In this document: positions 2 through 9,952 of the stretch, piece by piece
Numbering within the stretch: position 1 is the first letter of the stretch
Layout of the letters: every line of letters begins with the position of its first letter
DNA from: Solirubrobacterales bacterium
Lineage (GTDB): Bacteria; Actinomycetota; Thermoleophilia; Solirubrobacterales; Solirubrobacteraceae
Length of the DNA stretch: 64,000 nt
Direction: 5' to 3'
NCBI GenBank assembly: GCA_003138355.1
Contig: PLFX01000043.1
Location: forward strand, 117,848 to 181,847
The notes under the pieces: model-generated
What the model saw: only the letters and a program-made list of their open reading frames with translations
The model's database searches: none
What the model was told of the DNA's origin: nothing
Position numbers and translations under genes: made by a program

Positions 2-1363
2 GCGACCTGGCTCCTCGGCCTTCACACCAAGATCGCTCACCGGCTCAAACTCAATCTCTACGAGGTGGCCGATTCGGCAGAGTCGGGGGTCATTTTCGAG
101 GTCATGAATAACCGAGGCCGACCACTTTCGGACCTGGATCTCGTGAAGAACTACGTTCTCTACCTGGGGACGAAGCTGGATCTCGAGGTTGCGACAAACC
201 TTCTCGTAGATGACGTCGCATCAGCTTGGGCAAAGATCTTCACGAACCTCACGAACGCTGAACTCGACGATTCCGAGTACGAGAACCAACTTCTCCGCAC
301 GCACTGGCTCGTCGGCTACGACTCGGACGCCCGGGAGTGGCACGGACGCAAGTCGGTCAAGGACTATTTCGCGCTGCGCGCGTATGAGGACCAGCACGAC
401 GAGTTGCTAGCCGGTCTACGCGCGTTCGTGCAGACGCTGGCCGACACGTCGCTGGCCTACGCCGACATTCACCGCCCGATCCGCGACGGAGCGTTTCAGG
501 AATACGCCGGTCAACCCAAGATCCGTGCTGAGATCGTGGAGCTCAGCGACTGCCTCGTGCGGCTCGAGCACGTCGCACCTTTCAGGCCGCTACTTGTCGC
601 GACGAGGCTCCGACTCGGCGGCGACGCCCAGAAGTATCTGGAAGTACTGCGTCTCTGCGAAATCTACGCTTTCAGGATCTACGGACTCTTCGAGAAGCGC
701 TCGAACACAGGACAGTCGACCCTGTTCTCGCTTGCCGGGAAGCTCTGGGATGAGGAGCTGAGCTTCGAAGAGTTGCTGCGCCAGTTCGCTGGAACGCTGC
801 TCTCCTATGTCAGCCAGAAGGACTTTCTTGCGGCGTGGGATATGCCAGAGCTCGGCGAGGACCCCGACGAATGGTACGGCTGGCGCGGTTGCAAGTACCT
901 CCTTTTCGAGTACGAACGGCACTTCGTCGGGCAGGATGATCTAGGAACCAGGTGGTCAGCGAAGCTAAAGGCGGACCGTCAAAAAACGATCGAGCACATC
1001 CTCCCGCAGACCCCTGATGATCCGTACTGGGTTAAGCACTTCACGTCCGAGGAGGTCGAGCATTACGGGCACAGCCTGGGGAACCTCTGCCTGACGGAGG
1101 ACAACAGCAGCTACGGCAAGAGGTCCTTCACTGAAAAGCGCGGGACTCCTGGGCAAACGACGCCGTGCTACGCGAATGCGCCGCTCAAGAGCGAGCGCGA
1201 GCTCGCGCAGTACGACCAGTGGGGGCCCGCCGAGGTCCTTGAGCGTCGCGCCGAGCTGGTGGCTTGGGCTATCGAACGCTGGGCGCTGCCGGTCGGACTT
1301 GAAGCGGTCGAGCCAACGTCGGTCAAGTCTGCCGACGACGAGCTTGTCGAGGAAGTCGTCTGA
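2..1363 (+). CDS. GmrSD-like (DUF262/DUF1524) restriction protein, 5' end outside the window
   Basis: The frame is open from the first complete codon, so the gene begins upstream; the GTG at 65 is probably internal. The visible N-terminal part has IFEVMNNRGRPLSDLDLVKN, typical of the end of a DUF262 (GmrS-like) domain. The C-terminal part has the DUF1524 His-Me/HNH-like motif TIEHILPQ, with its histidine at about codon 311 counted from 65, followed by HSLGNLCLTEDNSSYGKRSF. Proteins with this pair of domains are modification-dependent (type IV) restriction enzymes that use NTP hydrolysis to cut modified phage DNA. The N-terminal nucleotide-binding motif lies outside the window and cannot be checked. 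The next gene follows after 21 bases on the same strand, suggesting an operon. Confidence 0.85.
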   Translation, partial: ATWLLGLHTKIAHRLKLNLYEVADSAESGVIFEVMNNRGRPLSDLDLVKNYVLYLGTKLDLEVATNLLVDDVASAWAKIFTNLTNAELDDSEYENQLLRTHWLVGYDSDAREWHGRKSVKDYFALRAYEDQHDELLAGLRAFVQTLADTSLAYADIHRPIRDGAFQEYAGQPKIRAEIVELSDCLVRLEHVAPFRPLLVATRLRLGGDAQKYLEVLRLCEIYAFRIYGLFEKRSNTGQSTLFSLAGKLWDEELSFEELLRQFAGTLLSYVSQKDFLAAWDMPELGEDPDEWYGWRGCKYLLFEYERHFVGQDDLGTRWSAKLKADRQKTIEHILPQTPDDPYWVKHFTSEEVEHYGHSLGNLCLTEDNSSYGKRSFTEKRGTPGQTTPCYANAPLKSERELAQYDQWGPAEVLERRAELVAWAIERWALPVGLEAVEPTSVKSADDELVEEVV

Positions 1364-1384: not shown

Positions 1385-2266
1385 ATGCCCACGCTTGACC
1401 CAGATTTTGAGGAGGCATCCTTCGCGGGCGCAGCCAACGCCGAACTCGGCCGTGACCGCGGTCGCTGGTTCACCCCAGGGCAAGTGGAGGAGGCGATTCT
1501 TGGGTACGACGCATCGACCGTGCCCGGCGATACGGCGCGTGCCGTCCTGCGGCGAGTAGCCGGGATCGAGCTCGGGCCCGGCGTATGGCTAACCCCGAAT
1601 TGGTGGCTCAGGTGTGCCGCCCGTCCGGAAGGCAGCCTGCTCCAAAGTCGATTCGCGAGTCTTCTTCTGCAGTACAAGCGCCCGACGATGCAATACGGGG
1701 CCTCGGCACCGCTCATGGAGCGATACGGCGCGCCCTACTTCCGGTTCGCGTTCACGCCAAAACAGCACAGAACCCTCGTCCGGCTGGACGAGGCACTGCT
1801 TGATGAAGCGGTAGTGCGCTACGCCAGTCCATGCACATGCCACAGGAAACAGGTCGAGCAATGGCAGATGGATCGCAGCGTGCTCGAGAACACGAACTTT
1901 GTGTCGCCACGCCGAATCGGACTCAAGCATCGTGCCTGGACATACCTCTTGCCCGGAGCCGTTGGATACCGAAACCGCTTCTCGTCCGACGACGACGCGA
2001 TCCCAAGCGATTCTGACGCTTCGCTCTTCGCGCAGCTTGTCGACGGCGCAAGGGCACTAGCCCTAGACCGGCACGTATCCCAACTGCTACGGCTGTTGGC
2101 CGGGGAAGCTGCCGACACTGCCGTCGACGAAACGATTGCTGAACTCGAAGTCAGCGAAATCGACACACCACGAGCGCAAGCGATCGCCACTGTCGCTCGA
2201 CTGCTGCTCGTCGGTGTTGAGCTGCAGGACTCGGGCGTGTCATGGTGGTTGCTCGAAGCTCGATGA
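1385..2266 (+). CDS. Uncharacterised defence-island protein with possible Q-x-K nuclease motif
   Basis: A 293-residue protein starting at an ATG 21 bases after the GmrSD-like gene. I do not recognise a named family. Seen directly: a WFTPGQVEEAIL segment near the N-terminus that may be a winged-helix-like module, then SRFASLLLQYKRPTMQYG with Q96-Y-K98, FRFAFTPKQHRTLVRL, and a conserved-looking NFVSPRRIGLKHRAWTYL. A Q-x-K preceded by acidic residues can be the core of a PD-(D/E)XK nuclease, but that is only inference. There is no signal peptide or membrane segment. Position and strand suggest co-expression with the restriction gene, as a partner subunit or a separate anti-phage effector. Confidence 0.7.
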   Translation: MPTLDPDFEEASFAGAANAELGRDRGRWFTPGQVEEAILGYDASTVPGDTARAVLRRVAGIELGPGVWLTPNWWLRCAARPEGSLLQSRFASLLLQYKRPTMQYGASAPLMERYGAPYFRFAFTPKQHRTLVRLDEALLDEAVVRYASPCTCHRKQVEQWQMDRSVLENTNFVSPRRIGLKHRAWTYLLPGAVGYRNRFSSDDDAIPSDSDASLFAQLVDGARALALDRHVSQLLRLLAGEAADTAVDETIAELEVSEIDTPRAQAIATVARLLLVGVELQDSGVSWWLLEAR

Positions 2267-2521: not shown

Positions 2522-3982
2522 ATGTCCGTCGGGCCTGACCTACGCGAGCAGCTTGAACGCTTGGATGCGTTGGGTGCAGCCGCGCGCGGCCGCGCGGCTG
2601 AGGTCTTGCTTCGTGCGCTGCTCCGACGCGGGCACATAACCGTGCATTCGGATGCTGGCATTGCGCGGCCTCGGCGCACTGACCTCTTTGCGTACACGGA
2701 GCGCCACCAGTACCTGGTTGAGGTCAAAGCGCGTGGCACGAAGGCAAACATCAGCGATCTCGATGGCTTGCGGGCGAGACTCGATCGATGCCCCAGCGGC
2801 GTTGTCGGAGTGCTTGTGTCTCTCGCGGGATTCACGCAGCCGGCCGTGCAGGCCGTCGCCGAGCATCGGAGCCAACCGATCCTGTTGCTCGGTCGACACG
2901 AGCTCGAGAGCCTTGCGGAGGACGTCGAAGACATGCGCGCGCTGCTGGACCGCAAACTCAGCGCGCTTACGCGCGATGGCAAAGTGGACCTCGCGCGGGA
3001 ACCAATCGACCAGATCCGCCGCTACCCAGGGGCGCGCCCCGAGGACATGTTCTTGGCCGAGTTAGACGGTCAGCGGCTGGATTGGTTTACAAGCGGCGGC
3101 GACTTCGGCGTGTTCACCTTCGTTCAGGCCGTGACCGACCCAACTTGGGGTCCTGGCCCCGAGACCTCGACGATGGTGCATATGCCGGTGCACGTTGGTT
3201 CGCAGACCCGAATCCTGGAGATCCTCGCCGGCCTCGATGAGGCCGGATGGTCGAGCAACATGGGACGCTGGTGCATCCAGCAATCGAATGTCAACTGGCA
3301 CGGTGCCGGCACGCGGACCCTGCGCGGAGCGCTCGAACGGTGGGACGAGCGTTACGCCGGCTGCGAGGGGCTGCACTATCGCGAGGAGGTGTGCTACGCC
3401 GACTCTTTCAATGACGGCTTCTACACGCTGACGTTCGACGTAGCCGCCGACGCGACGCGGCAGATCTGGTACACAGACGTGTCGGTCGAACTCGCCGGCA
3501 TACCGCTCGACCGGCAGCCGCTTCAGGCGCTCGCCGAGATACTCGGCGTGCGCGAGCCGCTGTACCTCCGAGTACGAGACCATCCGGTGCTTGAACGCTG
3601 CAGTCTGCGCGAACTCGATCTCAATCCGATCGCACCGACGGCGTACGTCGTCGCCGAAGACGAAAGAGCAGATGGCGCCCATTACTCGGTAATGGGTGTG
3701 GTTCTCGCCAACCCGTGGAGAAACGTTGCGTTGCCCGTGGAGCTTCCCAGGCAATTGCAAGATTCGCATTACCTGATCTGCGATCTCGCCGACTGGCACC
3801 CGCTGGTCGACAAGCTGTCCGCGTACAAAGTTGTCTCTGCGGAATGGGGCTGGACCTCCGCCGGCGCAGTGATCCGCGTCCGCGCGGATTGGGCCGACGA
3901 GGAGTACGAGCGGAAGCTAGACAAACGCTACGCCAATGGGCCCAGACGAGACGACGCCGCTGACAGCTTCCCGCTGGAGTGA
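2522..3982 (+). CDS. Probable restriction-endonuclease-like protein, PD-(D/E)XK N-terminus and unknown C-terminal domain
   Basis: A 486-residue soluble protein. Residues about 15-125 look like a Mrr/PD-(D/E)XK fold: a helix, then RRTDLFAY with D54, and YLVEVKARG with E67-x-K69, the expected D...ExK spacing. Residues about 150-486 hold an unrecognised region rich in Trp and Tyr, for example GRWCIQQSNVNWHGAG and YRVMGVV-like strands, which may be a sensor or substrate-binding part. It starts at ATG 2522, 255 bases after the previous gene, so it may have its own promoter. It ends 59 bases before the convergent end of the large NTPase gene. It could be a solitary nuclease or the effector of a system with its neighbours. 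Confidence 0.7.
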   Translation: MSVGPDLREQLERLDALGAAARGRAAEVLLRALLRRGHITVHSDAGIARPRRTDLFAYTERHQYLVEVKARGTKANISDLDGLRARLDRCPSGVVGVLVSLAGFTQPAVQAVAEHRSQPILLLGRHELESLAEDVEDMRALLDRKLSALTRDGKVDLAREPIDQIRRYPGARPEDMFLAELDGQRLDWFTSGGDFGVFTFVQAVTDPTWGPGPETSTMVHMPVHVGSQTRILEILAGLDEAGWSSNMGRWCIQQSNVNWHGAGTRTLRGALERWDERYAGCEGLHYREEVCYADSFNDGFYTLTFDVAADATRQIWYTDVSVELAGIPLDRQPLQALAEILGVREPLYLRVRDHPVLERCSLRELDLNPIAPTAYVVAEDERADGAHYSVMGVVLANPWRNVALPVELPRQLQDSHYLICDLADWHPLVDKLSAYKVVSAEWGWTSAGAVIRVRADWADEEYERKLDKRYANGPRRDDAADSFPLE

Positions 3983-4041: not shown

Positions 4042-7000
4042 CTACTCCGAGTAGGGTGCGAGCGTCCGATTACCCGCCACCACGAGGCCATCGACTACGT
4101 TCTGCCACGTGGTTTGACTGCCGGCGTCTGCGGCAGCCGACCGGATATCCGTGAGCCATCTCGAGATCAGGTAGCTCCCACGTGCGATCGCGTCGGCGTG
4201 GTCAAGGACAAGCATCGCCACCCGCGGGAGTCCGAAGGAAGCCTGCTCGTGCTCCGGAAGCGCGCGCACGAGCCCAATGAGCGAATCGACACAGTCCGGC
4301 TCCCCGACGGCCAGCGGGATCCACGCATCGATCTCGCTTGCCCATGCGCGTGGATCTGGCCAGATAATCGGGTTCGCTCCGACCTCCCAGAACAGATACT
4401 CGACCTCCTGGATCGGCGTGGGCATCAGCTCTCGCAACGCTCCAGTTCCGTAGCGCCGGTCGTGTAACGGCTGATGGCCTTGCGCGTTCAGTTCGAGAAC
4501 CTGCGAGATCACTTCGGGCCAGACCCGGCGCGCTGCGTTCGCCGTCTCCTGCCGCTCCTCAGCTGCGGCGTTTAGCGCTCTGAGCATCCCGGTCAGATGC
4601 GTGCTTTCGTCCGCGTACGCCTCGATCGTCTCGTGCAGAGGTGCATCGTCACCGGCGCCTGCCACGTCGAGAAGCGCACGCGCCGCGATCAGAGCATGAG
4701 TGCCCCGGTGGTCGTAGAGATCGTCCTGCGCCAGTAGGCCACGGCGTTGCGCGTGGAGTAGGCGCGGGAGGAGCGCCGCGGCTTCCTCCCGCACGCAGCT
4801 CGGCCGGGCCGCGGCCCTACCACACGCCCGGATTGCGGCGTCGAGCTTCGGGAACAAAAGATCATCGTCTGGGACACGGTCGAGTTCCGTTGCGATGGGA
4901 TCCGGCACTCGCCCCACATGTCGACGTTGGCCCGCAACGTCCCAGGCACCGAGAACGCAATCCCGCATCGACTCGGTAGCGATCTCGAGCGCGAGCGAAT
5001 GGTGGCACGGAGCCTCCGCGCTGCACGGAGCACTCCAGATCACATCCAGGCCACGAGCGAGGTGCAGGCGCGTCTCGTCGGCCACGGCCTGCGCGAGACG
5101 CTTGCATGCGTCCGCCACCCGTGACAGGCTCGCTGCGCCTTCGGCGTCAAGGAGGCCGCGTAGAGGCGCTGCCTGCGGCAATAGAAGAAGCGGCAAAGCA
5201 CGACCGGCCGCACGATCTGGGCCCTGCTCGAAGTAGCTGCCCTCGAACTCGAACGCATCGGGGACCGATTGCGCGGCCGCAGACATCAGAGCGTTCACGA
5301 CGAAGGATGCGGCCGACGGTGTGAGCGCCTCACCGTGCAGAACGACCATCTCGACGGCGTGGGCCGCTATCGCCGTGGCCATATCTACAACCGGGGTCGC
5401 GGAGTTCGTCGGAGGATCGTTGACGAGGGCTTCGGCCAGCGCGAGATCGTGCGCGAGCGCCTCGCCCACGGGCGGAGGTGCCTTCTCCCGCCCGCGCGCG
5501 CCGCCGGCGAAGTAACGCCACTGAATCCGGGTTACCTCCTGCCCGCGCTGAAGATCTTCGGCGCCTGGTTGCAGCGACGCCTCAACATCCTCCGGCGCGC
5601 GACTTTGCACGTACGTCGTGTCCCCTTCGGCGTGCACCTCGTAGCTGCCCTGATCGAGCGCGCTCGCCCACGCTCGCGCAAGCGTGCTCAGAGATGGGCC
5701 GGCGTCGGGCTCGATGGATTCGGCTGCGCCTTCCTCCTCCGATGCGTCCGGTTCCGCCTCCAGCTCCCTCGCATGCTCCACCAGCCGGTCGCCAATGGCA
5801 CGCAGGGCCGCCGCCCGTTCAGGACTCGCGGTGACGGTCAGCCAGGATGCAGCCTCGCGACACGACCACGACCGGCGCTCGGGTGCGACCAGGCCCTCGG
5901 AGCTCGCCGCCAGCAGGCTTGCCTCGTGCACAACGCGGACGAACTCCAGGCGCCACACGAGCGGCTCCGCCAAAAAGGGATCGAGCGACGTGCCGGCACG
6001 TTCAATGTGGCGCACGACAAGCCCCACAACGAGGCCCGGCATCGCCAGGTTCTCGCACCCATCCAGCAGAAGTGCCGCGAGGCGATCGGGAGCCGCTCCG
6101 TTGGACAGGAGCTGGTCACACACCCGCTCCAGCGCGCGCAGCGCACTCACGCAAGGAGGCGGACCCACGGCAGATCCGCGATACCAACGCCACACATGGT
6201 CATCGCCGAAGTACGCGCGCGGTGCTCCGGTCAGCCGAAGGGTGATCCCGAGCCCATAGACATCGTTGTCATCAACCTGGCGCCACGGGTTGCCAACTGC
6301 CACCATTGTGCGAACCCGCGCCCGTGCTGCGTGATTCAGCAGCCGGTTCAACACGGCGATACCCCGCCGCAAGTCGCTCTGAAATAGGAACGCGAACGGT
6401 CCCTTCCACGGGCCAGACAACGGCGCCACCGACCCGCGAGCGCGGTGGTCGCGCACGCCGTCGTCGTGGAGACCAAACCGGCCGTCGGCTTCGTCGATGT
6501 AGTAAGCCTCCACCAAATCAGCCAACAGACCGTGGCCGTAGCTCGCCAAAGCGCGACCGGTACCGAGCTCTTCCACTGCCGGAGCCAGTTCCCCTGGAGC
6601 CTCCGAAGCCACCTGCCTGAGAAGCCGCTCCCCGTCGTCACCCAAATCTGGCCCAAGCAGCGCAAGCAATTCGACCACGATCTCTTCGCGTAACTCGCGC
6701 GCGAGCTGAGGGGCACGCCGCCTCCGCGTGCGCGCACCGAGAACGCCACGCAAGGCATCGCGTCGCGCGGCGTTGTGCTGCTCCTCTTCAGACGGCTCGA
6801 CAGCCTCCGCGCTTTGCGCTGCAGTCTCGAGGTGTTGTCGTTGGAGGAAATCAGCCTGGGCGCTATCACATGCCCCCACCAAGCTCTCGCGCAGACGGAT
6901 CCGCAGGGGATCCCCACTCTGCCTGTCCCGCACAACCAGGGCAAGCAGCCATTCGCGAAGCAGTCGCCCGGTCTCAGCGTCCTCCCACGGCGTCTCGTCA

Positions 7001-9255
7001 TTCAGGACCAGGGAAACAATCGGCTCGACGACGACGGGATCCACGAACGCGTCCACCCGGTGCCGTTGGTCCACCAAACGAAGCAGCCGACCCAGACCAG
7101 CGCTGTCACCCTGATGCAGACCCGCCCACGCTTCCGCGAGGACTGGCGCAGGATCGCCAAGCGTAAGGAGCGCTTCCGAGGGCACGTCACCCCACCGGGC
7201 TCCGTGTCCGGCGGCCACGAGCGCGTCGAACGCCTCCTGCTGCCGCCCGAGCCGGCCGTGCAACGGCTCGTCGGAGCTATCCGGCTGCGATAGCACCGCC
7301 TGCGACGCAAGGCGCGCGGCTGGTAGCGCCCAGCGCGGAGCGTCCGCAGCAAGAAGCGTCGCGACGGGATCCCCGTCGGCCAGCAGGGCGCGGGCCACCG
7401 CGTAGCGCCGCACCTCGTCGTGGGCGAAGTCTGGGACGAGCTGCCACGGCCTGCTGACCGACGCTCGTAACAACCCGTCCTGCCGCAGGCCGTCGATGGC
7501 GCCAGCGTCCAGCTCGGCTGCCAACTCGACAGCTGATCCTCGCGAAAGCTCTCGCAAGGCCAGACGGACAAGCACATGCTCGCGTGCATCTGGAAGGCCG
7601 CGATCCCGCTTCTCGTGCCGGCGCACGAGACCGGCCCAGACTTGGCGCATCGCGTCAACGTCGCTCATCGGGAGCCCACTCGGCTCACTCCGTACGAGAA
7701 GGTCAACCACGACCAGACGTCTGAGTAGCTCGCGAGACCGCTCGTTTGCGCCTAACCGGGCGAGCTGAGGGAACGCGACGATGACCTCGTCGAGTTCAGT
7801 GTCGTTGAGGCCGCCGACGGTGTATGGCGCGACGTCGTCTGTTCCAATTCTCTGCGAGACGATGTCGCGAACCACTTGGCTGGCTTCGCTGGTGCTCACA
7901 GCGATAACGCAAACACCGGCCGTATGCGCTGCGTCTACCACGTACGAGAACACGTCGGAGCGCGACTCCGTCGCTGCGTCAGCGCCATCCACCACCAAGA
8001 GCCGGAGCGGTGCGCTCATCTCGGAAAGGACGTCTGCAAGCGAACTACCCAACACCGACACCAGGTCCAGAGGCCGCTCGGGAAGATGTCGGAGGTTGAG
8101 GGAGACGACGCCTGCATCGCCGGCTTCGTCTGCTTCGGCGGCAGCTCGCAATACCAGCGAGCTCTTCCCCACGCCGGACTCGCCGTCCACGACCAGCGCG
8201 CGAGCATTTGCGGTCGCCGCGATAATGGCCTCCGCGCTTGCGGTGCGGTCCACGCGAAAGGCGCTCGCTCCAACCGGTCGGATCTCGTCTCGGACCGCCG
8301 CTCGCGCCTCCTGCTGCAGGTGCTCCAGCAGAAGCCACGCGCGGGTATGTCGCCGCTGGCCGGGTTCGAGAAGCGAATGAACCTCGCGACGGAGCGATGA
8401 GAGATCAACGACGGCGGCGGCCGGACCGTACTGGCCCGCAAGCACCTCAAGACGGTCGAGGAGGTGGTGCGCCGCGCCAAGATCGCGCCCGCGAGCGACC
8501 GCCGCCAGTCGGTTCTGTGCGTGGATCCAATCTGTTGTGTCCGGCTCCTCGACCCGAGGCGTAAGCACCCACAGACGGCGCAGGAGCCGCCACGTCATTC
8601 CGCGCCCGCCATCAGCGATCACCATCTCCACTGGATGAGGCGCTGCGCTCACGAGCGCGCTCAAGTGTTCAAGTCGATTGACCAGACCTTGCGCAAAGCG
8701 TCCGGGCTCCGAGAGCAGCTCGAAGAAGGCCAGCGCGTCGACCTGGGTACGGGCATGCGCGCACAACTCGGAGAGCTGCTCGGCGTGGGTATTGCGGCCG
8801 GCCACAACCAGAGCCAGCCGGTGCTCGCGGTTGTCATCCGGCGCATCGACAAGGGCTTGGACGTACTGTCCGAACAGCGTCTGCGCGTCGCCGTTGCTGC
8901 GTACGAGATTTGGCCGCCGCCGAATGCCGATTGCCAGCTCGACGCTTGGCTCAGTCTCGCCGGGCCGCGACACCGTTACGACGAGGTCGTCGACGGATAC
9001 GCGTGGCGCCTGCTGAAAGGCCACTGAGACGATTGCACCGTCGTCTCCAAGTTCTGGCGAGGTATCGCCGGTCAGGAGCTGCGCAAGGTAGAGCGCTCCG
9101 ATTCTGCGCTCGAGCGTAACCCCGCCACCACCGGTCGAATACGGGCTTGAGGCCTCGCCTGAGCGTGAGCCGGACGGCCGCTCGCGGCCGTCCGCTTGGT
9201 TGCCCGCGCCGTCGCTTTCCGGTGCCTCTGCGACGTCAGCGTCGTTGTTGTTCAT
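4042..9255 (-). CDS. Giant STAND-like P-loop NTPase, putative defence protein (1737 aa)
   Basis: A single uninterrupted 1737-residue reading frame. After a low-complexity N-terminus, residues about 44-140 (GGGVTLERRIGALYLAQLL ... VDDLVVTV ... VELAIGIRRRPNL) resemble the DUF4297/Cap4-type dsDNA endonuclease region, but the usual catalytic (E/Q)xK is replaced by AIGIRRR, so activity is doubtful. An NTPase module follows: Walker A GESGVGKSS (K364), Walker B LRLLVVDGADA (D423), and a C-terminal FAHDEVRRYAVAR box (H612), as in STAND ATPases. The remaining 1100 residues are helix-rich, without clear repeats, and could be a target-recognition platform. No transmembrane segment is evident. Avs-type and related STAND proteins sense phage products and activate a nuclease; that this protein does so is inference. 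It is convergent with the nuclease gene at 2522. Confidence 0.75.
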   Translation of the reverse strand: MNNNDADVAEAPESDGAGNQADGRERPSGSRSGEASSPYSTGGGGVTLERRIGALYLAQLLTGDTSPELGDDGAIVSVAFQQAPRVSVDDLVVTVSRPGETEPSVELAIGIRRRPNLVRSNGDAQTLFGQYVQALVDAPDDNREHRLALVVAGRNTHAEQLSELCAHARTQVDALAFFELLSEPGRFAQGLVNRLEHLSALVSAAPHPVEMVIADGGRGMTWRLLRRLWVLTPRVEEPDTTDWIHAQNRLAAVARGRDLGAAHHLLDRLEVLAGQYGPAAAVVDLSSLRREVHSLLEPGQRRHTRAWLLLEHLQQEARAAVRDEIRPVGASAFRVDRTASAEAIIAATANARALVVDGESGVGKSSLVLRAAAEADEAGDAGVVSLNLRHLPERPLDLVSVLGSSLADVLSEMSAPLRLLVVDGADAATESRSDVFSYVVDAAHTAGVCVIAVSTSEASQVVRDIVSQRIGTDDVAPYTVGGLNDTELDEVIVAFPQLARLGANERSRELLRRLVVVDLLVRSEPSGLPMSDVDAMRQVWAGLVRRHEKRDRGLPDAREHVLVRLALRELSRGSAVELAAELDAGAIDGLRQDGLLRASVSRPWQLVPDFAHDEVRRYAVARALLADGDPVATLLAADAPRWALPAARLASQAVLSQPDSSDEPLHGRLGRQQEAFDALVAAGHGARWGDVPSEALLTLGDPAPVLAEAWAGLHQGDSAGLGRLLRLVDQRHRVDAFVDPVVVEPIVSLVLNDETPWEDAETGRLLREWLLALVVRDRQSGDPLRIRLRESLVGACDSAQADFLQRQHLETAAQSAEAVEPSEEEQHNAARRDALRGVLGARTRRRRAPQLARELREEIVVELLALLGPDLGDDGERLLRQVASEAPGELAPAVEELGTGRALASYGHGLLADLVEAYYIDEADGRFGLHDDGVRDHRARGSVAPLSGPWKGPFAFLFQSDLRRGIAVLNRLLNHAARARVRTMVAVGNPWRQVDDNDVYGLGITLRLTGAPRAYFGDDHVWRWYRGSAVGPPPCVSALRALERVCDQLLSNGAAPDRLAALLLDGCENLAMPGLVVGLVVRHIERAGTSLDPFLAEPLVWRLEFVRVVHEASLLAASSEGLVAPERRSWSCREAASWLTVTASPERAAALRAIGDRLVEHARELEAEPDASEEEGAAESIEPDAGPSLSTLARAWASALDQGSYEVHAEGDTTYVQSRAPEDVEASLQPGAEDLQRGQEVTRIQWRYFAGGARGREKAPPPVGEALAHDLALAEALVNDPPTNSATPVVDMATAIAAHAVEMVVLHGEALTPSAASFVVNALMSAAAQSVPDAFEFEGSYFEQGPDRAAGRALPLLLLPQAAPLRGLLDAEGAASLSRVADACKRLAQAVADETRLHLARGLDVIWSAPCSAEAPCHHSLALEIATESMRDCVLGAWDVAGQRRHVGRVPDPIATELDRVPDDDLLFPKLDAAIRACGRAAARPSCVREEAAALLPRLLHAQRRGLLAQDDLYDHRGTHALIAARALLDVAGAGDDAPLHETIEAYADESTHLTGMLRALNAAAEERQETANAARRVWPEVISQVLELNAQGHQPLHDRRYGTGALRELMPTPIQEVEYLFWEVGANPIIWPDPRAWASEIDAWIPLAVGEPDCVDSLIGLVRALPEHEQASFGLPRVAMLVLDHADAIARGSYLISRWLTDIRSAAADAGSQTTWQNVVDGLVVAGNRTLAPYSE

Positions 9256-9367: not shown

Positions 9368-9952
9368 TCAAGGAGCGGTCTGGAGTGCTCGCTCGATCGC
9401 GCGGTACACGGTCGACCGGGCGACGCCGAAAAGTTCGGAGAGCTCACCGGGGGTCTTCTCCCCCGCTTCGTGCAGAGCCGCGAGGTGCGCCTCTGTCGCC
9501 CGGCTGAGCTTTGGCTGACGCCCGCGCAGCTTGCCGGCCGCCCGGGCGGCCGCCATCCCCTCCCGGGTCCGTGCGCGGATCAGGTCGCTCTCGAACTCAG
9601 CGATCATCGCAAGCATGTTGAACAGCAGGCGACCGACGGGATCGGTCGGGTCGTGGACTGACCCGCCGAGATTGAGCTTGACTTGACGCTCGGTCAGCTC
9701 GTCGGCGATGTCGCGCGCGTCCGGTAGCGAACGCGCGAGCCGGTCCAGCTTCGTGACCACGAGCGTGTCGCCCGCACGGCACGCCGCTAGCGCCTCACGC
9801 AAGCCGGGGCGCTCACGGTTCGTGCCGGTCAAGCCGTGGTCGACGTAGATCCGCTCACGCGCCACGCCGAGCGCTTCGAGCGCCTCCCGCTGCGCGGTCA
9901 GGTCCTGCTCCTGGGTGGACACACGCGCGTAGCCGATGCTCAGACCGGGCAC
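9368..9952 (-). CDS. Serine recombinase / resolvase, Pin-Hin family
   Basis: A complete 194-residue small serine recombinase. The catalytic N-terminal domain starts with IGYARVSTQEQDL, where S12 is the expected nucleophile, and continues with TGTNRERPGLREAL, VTKLDRLARS and AMIAEFESDLIRARTREGM. A C-terminal helix-turn-helix follows (EKTPGELSELFGVARSTVYRAIERAL). Such enzymes invert or resolve DNA segments, or are carried by Tn3-type transposons and plasmids. No transposase or obvious pair of inverted terminal repeats was found next to it. It lies 112 bases beyond the start of the giant NTPase gene on the same strand and marks the right side of the defence-like island. Confidence 0.93.
   Translation of the reverse strand: MPGLSIGYARVSTQEQDLTAQREALEALGVARERIYVDHGLTGTNRERPGLREALAACRAGDTLVVTKLDRLARSLPDARDIADELTERQVKLNLGGSVHDPTDPVGRLLFNMLAMIAEFESDLIRARTREGMAAARAAGKLRGRQPKLSRATEAHLAALHEAGEKTPGELSELFGVARSTVYRAIERALQTAP

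Follow-up and report, generated by a model that had tools for sequence, protein, structure and literature searches.

What does a nuclease-like domain do at the head of a giant STAND NTPase once its catalytic residues have been replaced? This question is raised by a gene at 4042..9255 on the minus strand of a 64,000-nt stretch of contig PLFX01000043.1 from a Solirubrobacterales bacterium (hereafter the window), which codes for an Avs4-like STAND protein of 1737 amino acids. The open reading frame starts with ATG, contains no internal stop and is also unbroken in the genome assembly, in agreement with a preliminary description that had reported a single giant STAND-like gene at this position; homologues share 32–48% identity with the protein over its full length. 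Our analysis indicates that the N-terminal module is probably a conserved pseudo-nuclease that occupies the effector slot of an Avs4-like, presumably anti-phage protein and acts without cutting.

Replacement of the catalytic motif throughout one clade

The effector-slot module comprises residues 37–295 (8371..9147; all features of this protein lie on the minus strand) and was assigned as a degenerate PD-(D/E)xK-like domain from its homology to a module carrying an intact Q-x-K motif, from the clade that it forms with other degenerate modules and from its presence on other protein backbones. Its motif reads A108-I-G110-I-R112-R-R-P115, preceded by V-D89-D90-L. The acidic pair D89-D90 (8986..8991) was invariant in every degenerate and QxK homologue aligned, whereas G110-I111-R112 (8920..8928) replaces Q-x-K: both Q and K were present in 11/11 QxK sequences at positions 110 and 112, and the 17 degenerate homologues first aligned had G (9), A (7) or S (1) at the first position and R at the last in all cases. 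R112, P115, D89 and D90 were each invariant in these 17, which exceeds chance, and P115 is a new invariant residue of the degenerate modules. QxK relatives were collected via an Avs4-family protein (L043) and from plasmids. Enlarging the alignment gave the same pattern and revealed no intermediates, with D-D...Q-x-K in 16 relatives and D-D...(G/A/S)-x-R-x-x-P in 18, including the window protein. The earlier observation that AIGIRRR stands where a nuclease (E/Q)xK is expected was thereby confirmed, and the alignment of homologues showed that the catalytic lysine had become R112 in all 18 degenerate modules. The profiles of the two module types matched each other with 99.9% hhalign probability (E 7.8e-34). 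Three degenerate proteins (L032, L008 and L080) carry ~90–140 additional residues ahead of the module, with weak MarR/helix-turn-helix matches in the L032 stretch.

The closest known systems with the intact form are PADLOC PDC-M54A and unnamed Avs4-like QxK proteins (L043, L048 and L076 among them), which are full-size proteins with the same N-terminal module, L043 and L076 also sharing the backbone. Unlike the window protein, for which PADLOC returned no match, these proteins retain the catalytic Q and K.

In a module tree calculated with the motif columns omitted, the degenerate modules formed one clade (support 96/96) recovered in 98% of bootstrap trees, and another tree gave 95/92. Of the QxK cousins, the four nearest to this clade included three that grouped together (L039, L076 and L077). 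L076, which combines the same backbone with the motif QIK, was the outgroup to the degenerate proteins in a tree of the STAND and sensor regions, a placement made less sure by its long branch and the quick method used. Because the QxK form is more widely spread, we infer that the motif was lost, not gained.

Selection and transfer between backbones

The ratio of nonsynonymous to synonymous substitutions (dN/dS), estimated for four pairs by the simple Nei-Gojobori method, was 0.17–0.33 for the module and 0.10–0.25 for its first 90 residues, and the module is thus under purifying selection. The phylogeny of the degenerate clade required at least four backbone changes (to a beta-propeller, to a NACHT-like protein and twice to STAND-TPR), and the module was found on a PQQ beta-propeller protein that has no NTPase (L014:5809-8019), an NTPase beside an IS256 element (L015) and two STAND_TPR proteins (L035 and L036). 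The QxK form was likewise found on another backbone, an NTPase with repeats (L039).

The position of the module within the protein was revealed by a sister pair. In the Streptomyces NBC_00525 plasmid protein L011 (L011:8119-13035), a trypsin domain stands where its sister L034 has the degenerate module. Past the junction, identity between the two amounts to 78% at the protein level and 80% at the DNA level, and the DNA similarity begins at the junction itself. The trypsin-like domain (Pfam 1.2e-4) appears intact, with H34, D82 and S170 in their motif context, and upstream of L011 lies a gene for trypco2, for which a partnership with trypsin effectors has been described (PMC7159879). This comparison showed that the module sits in a predicted effector slot where it is exchangeable with a protease. 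The slot is the one that trypsin/trypco2 effector modules occupy in L011 (PMC7159879; for protease-nuclease pairs, PMC12799240), the difference being that the protease looks active and the window module is a putative pseudo-nuclease. The near-identical L034/L011 pair represents a natural experiment in which one sensor is linked to two outputs, pseudo-nuclease and trypsin.

Homology of the scaffold to Avs4

The STAND and sensor scaffold is homologous to AVAST type 4 (Avs4). The family profile aligned with L043 over columns 30–1107 (hhalign 99.9%, E 6.6e-36), and the window protein, with a STAND NTPase and a long helical sensor like those of Avs4, is colinear with it to about residue 1107. L043 in turn scored 514 bits against the NCBIfam Avs4 model NF041815, under its 1500-bit cut-off, and matched the solved Avs4 structure (8dgf) with E 2.8e-70 in an alignment that began only after the N-terminal domain, where the effectors differ. 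A direct sequence search of the PDB gave no more than a weak match to Avs4 (E 0.14). An AlphaFold model of residues 300–1150 had a predicted local distance difference test score (pLDDT) of 76, and its closest PDB fold by Foldseek was portal-bound Avs4 (8dgf, E 1.4e-14), followed by NLRC4 (1.7e-06). The TM-scores of this model against its PDB matches were low (0.31), probably owing to differing domain orientation and to the partial model, and the match is therefore taken to support homology of the scaffold, not identical architecture.

The helical sensor region extends over residues 621–1737 (4045..7395), of which the part within the 300–1150 model contributes to the match with portal-bound Avs4. 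It contains the family-invariant motif GDDHVWRWYRG (residues 1017–1027, 6175..6207), followed by V-G-P, which aligned with LWGLYRGTSVGP of L043, itself aligned with 8dgf. Much of the 1100-residue C-terminus that had been set down as unknown is thus homologous to the Avs4 sensor region, and that label no longer applies to the whole of it. In published Avs1–4 the effectors are nucleases (PMC12931631). The active nuclease effector of Avs4 appears to have no counterpart in the window protein, whose clade carries GxR for QxK throughout.

Possible relationship of the module to Cap4 nucleases

The QxK module is predicted to be a PD-(D/E)xK nuclease of the Cap4 type, from motifs that stand in register and from weak similarity between profiles. 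A helix, D-x-x-V and QxK are in register between the QxK cousins and Cap4_nuclease (PF14130, formerly DUF4297), for which the comparison members came from Streptomycetales, too few being available near the kin of the window. The QxK cousins scored 27.2 against these members compared to a maximum of 20.1 in shuffled controls (above 120/120), at an hhalign probability of just 6–32%. The Cap4-type assignment of the N-terminus made earlier thus holds at the level of motif and weak profile similarity but not at that of Pfam or of this probability. In the window protein the catalytic D...(E/Q)xK is incomplete, D89/D90 being present and Q and K replaced.

Inactive nucleases beside an NTPase are also found in NA-iREase3 (NACHT-associated inactive restriction endonuclease, PF22739) and in the inactive restriction endonucleases (iREases) of BREX-related systems, which are similar in concept; the window module, unlike these, is N-terminal and in the effector slot. 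Membership in NA-iREase3 was rejected, as Pfam gave no match to this family in the window protein; one module member matched it weakly (E 0.025), and looking for members of the family among relatives yielded a single weak hit.

Proposed mode of action and alternatives

By analogy with Avs4, the C-terminal helical region would sense a signal of infection (probably a protein of the phage), whereupon the STAND NTPase would oligomerize and the N-terminal module would deliver the output; the trigger, the oligomerization and the output, like the loss of cutting, are read from Avs4 and from the sequence. In the output module, related to PD-(D/E)xK enzymes, a single event of loss would have replaced the catalytic Q by G/A/S and the K by R, after which selection would have kept the module. 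After clustering, the D-D/R pocket that it retains would bind nucleic acid or dock another effector encoded elsewhere, most likely without cutting, and the module may, as one possibility, serve as the output of a sensor that calls in a separate effector. Its action is predicted to be non-catalytic from the replaced residues.

Several observations weigh against a non-cutting nuclease relative in an anti-phage protein. The window protein scored 13.4 bits (E 0.0077) against NF041815, far under the 1500-bit equivalog cut-off, and is therefore Avs4-related rather than Avs4; portal recognition and an anti-phage function are themselves predictions by analogy. Neither the window protein nor the QxK cousins matched Pfam PF14130, and the nuclease activity of the cousins is likewise predicted. 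An AlphaFold model of residues 37–295, built with 6 sequences taken from the window and related loci, reached a pLDDT of 45; the nuclease fold is therefore predicted from the homology of the module to QxK sequences, which have no Pfam nuclease match. No conserved partner gene that a docking module could call was found beside the loci. Finally, a K-to-R change is chemically mild and the D-D pair remains, and some catalysis, residual or altered, may therefore persist.

The best of the alternatives, which we consider unlikely, is that the module remains a hydrolase whose site has been rewired, D89/D90 acting with R112 in place of the lysine, and that once activated it cleaves DNA, RNA or a nucleotide. 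In its favor, D89, D90, Q81 and R112 never vary at the ancestral pocket, the degenerate modules hold constant seven of the 12 positions that do not vary among QxK modules, compared to 21 of 265 overall, and the slot can evidently hold an enzyme. Against it, a small residue always stands at the E/Q position, and three degenerate members lack the helix glutamate E49, so that metal ligands are few. Slightly less probable still is a role as an extra sensor or decoy, in which the inactive nuclease would bind the nucleic acid of an invader, or anti-nuclease proteins made by phages, and feed the STAND switch. For the inactive restriction endonuclease domains of BREX-related systems such a role has been proposed (PMC12839542), related conflict systems commonly contain enzyme domains that are inactive (PMC7159879), and the module also occurs on the beta-propeller protein that has no NTPase; nevertheless, it occupies an effector slot that is protease-swapped in a 78% identical sister, and one would not expect an effector to take the place of a second sensor.

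A non-cutting output module is likewise preferred over the proposal, made in the preliminary description, that the protein calls in the neighboring ExK nuclease (2522-3982). This gene lies 59 bases away and contains an Mrr-like stretch (E 0.0038, below the Pfam cut-off), but it and the STAND gene converge tail to tail from opposite strands, several further nucleases are equally near, and no homologue of it stood beside any of 19 other loci; the partnership was rejected for this lack of conserved pairing and is very improbable. Mere decay of the N-terminus is the least credible explanation of all, since the loss of catalytic residues is accompanied by low dN/dS, by invariant R112 and P115 and by the acquisition of new backbones after the loss.

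More tentatively, and with somewhat less than even confidence, we suggest that these belong to a mobile class of pseudo-nuclease output modules, in which catalysis was lost once and which were then selected and shuffled, as effectors or adaptors that do not cut, among bacterial NLR-like (nucleotide-binding leucine-rich repeat-like) and propeller proteins. Avs1–4 have been described as DNA cutters, with which a uniformly dead module would contrast; if the module is indeed non-cutting, Avs-type immunity could operate without DNA degradation by the protein itself. If a dead but selected nuclease is confirmed, bacterial NLRs may use non-enzymatic output domains, like some animal and plant NLRs.

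NTPase motifs

The NTPase core agreed with the earlier description. Walker A (GESGVGKS, residues 358–365, 8161..8184) has G358, V362, G363, K364 and S365 invariant, and Walker B (LLVVD, residues 419–423, 7987..8001) has D423 invariant together with the following G424; K364 and D423, named before as intact, were found at these residues and were invariant among full-length homologues. The F-x-H-D box (F610-A-H612-D613, 7417..7428) is also intact in the window protein, with F610 and D613 invariant and H612 replaced by S in one homologue (L006). Pfam placed AAA_22 and NACHT (just below cut-off) and AAA_16 (also below it) at residues 350–490, and nothing else.

Genomic neighborhood and distribution

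The gene belongs to a defense island in the order Mrr-like gene, GmrSD-like gene, a gene of unknown type, ExK gene, STAND gene and resolvase, with a G+C content of 59–69% compared to 69–73% beyond 10 kb. The island is flanked by a serine resolvase (window 9368-9952, minus strand) and an IS110-like transposase recognized by eye (L042:17080-18129, plus strand). The remaining genes are all on the plus strand: a membrane-anchored Mrr-like gene just upstream of the window (L042:18382-19224), with a D...QCK motif seen by eye and, at its C-terminus, a zinc-binding-like stretch; a GmrSD/DUF262-DUF1524-type gene (window 65-1363) that matched PADLOC HEC-06 and starts upstream of the window (L042:19298, G000:C46); and a gene for a 293-aa protein between the GmrSD-like and ExK genes (window 1385-2266), with no match in Pfam, NCBIfam or PADLOC. 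Apart from near-copies, the only flanking genes in common between loci were a type I restriction system in two Pseudomonadales, with a similar methylase gene by L008, and a zinc-ribbon protein near L008, L037 and L014.

No close relative of the window protein was detected in 100 related genomes searched, 3 of them of the same genus, and no relatives were found in the viral contigs scanned or the phages searched. Full-length homologues with 45–48% identity came from metagenome-assembled genomes of Pseudomonadales, Alphaproteobacteria and Nitrospinae, one with ~32% identity from a Chloroflexi metagenome-assembled genome, and further homologues (~32–48%) from plasmids of Streptomyces, Embleya and Rhodococcus. 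The degenerate Avs4-like clade is thus widespread, spanning Actinomycetota, Pseudomonadales, Alphaproteobacteria, Nitrospinae and Chloroflexi, and in the order to which the Streptomyces-like genomes belong, 10 of 294 genomes carried the N-terminal module.
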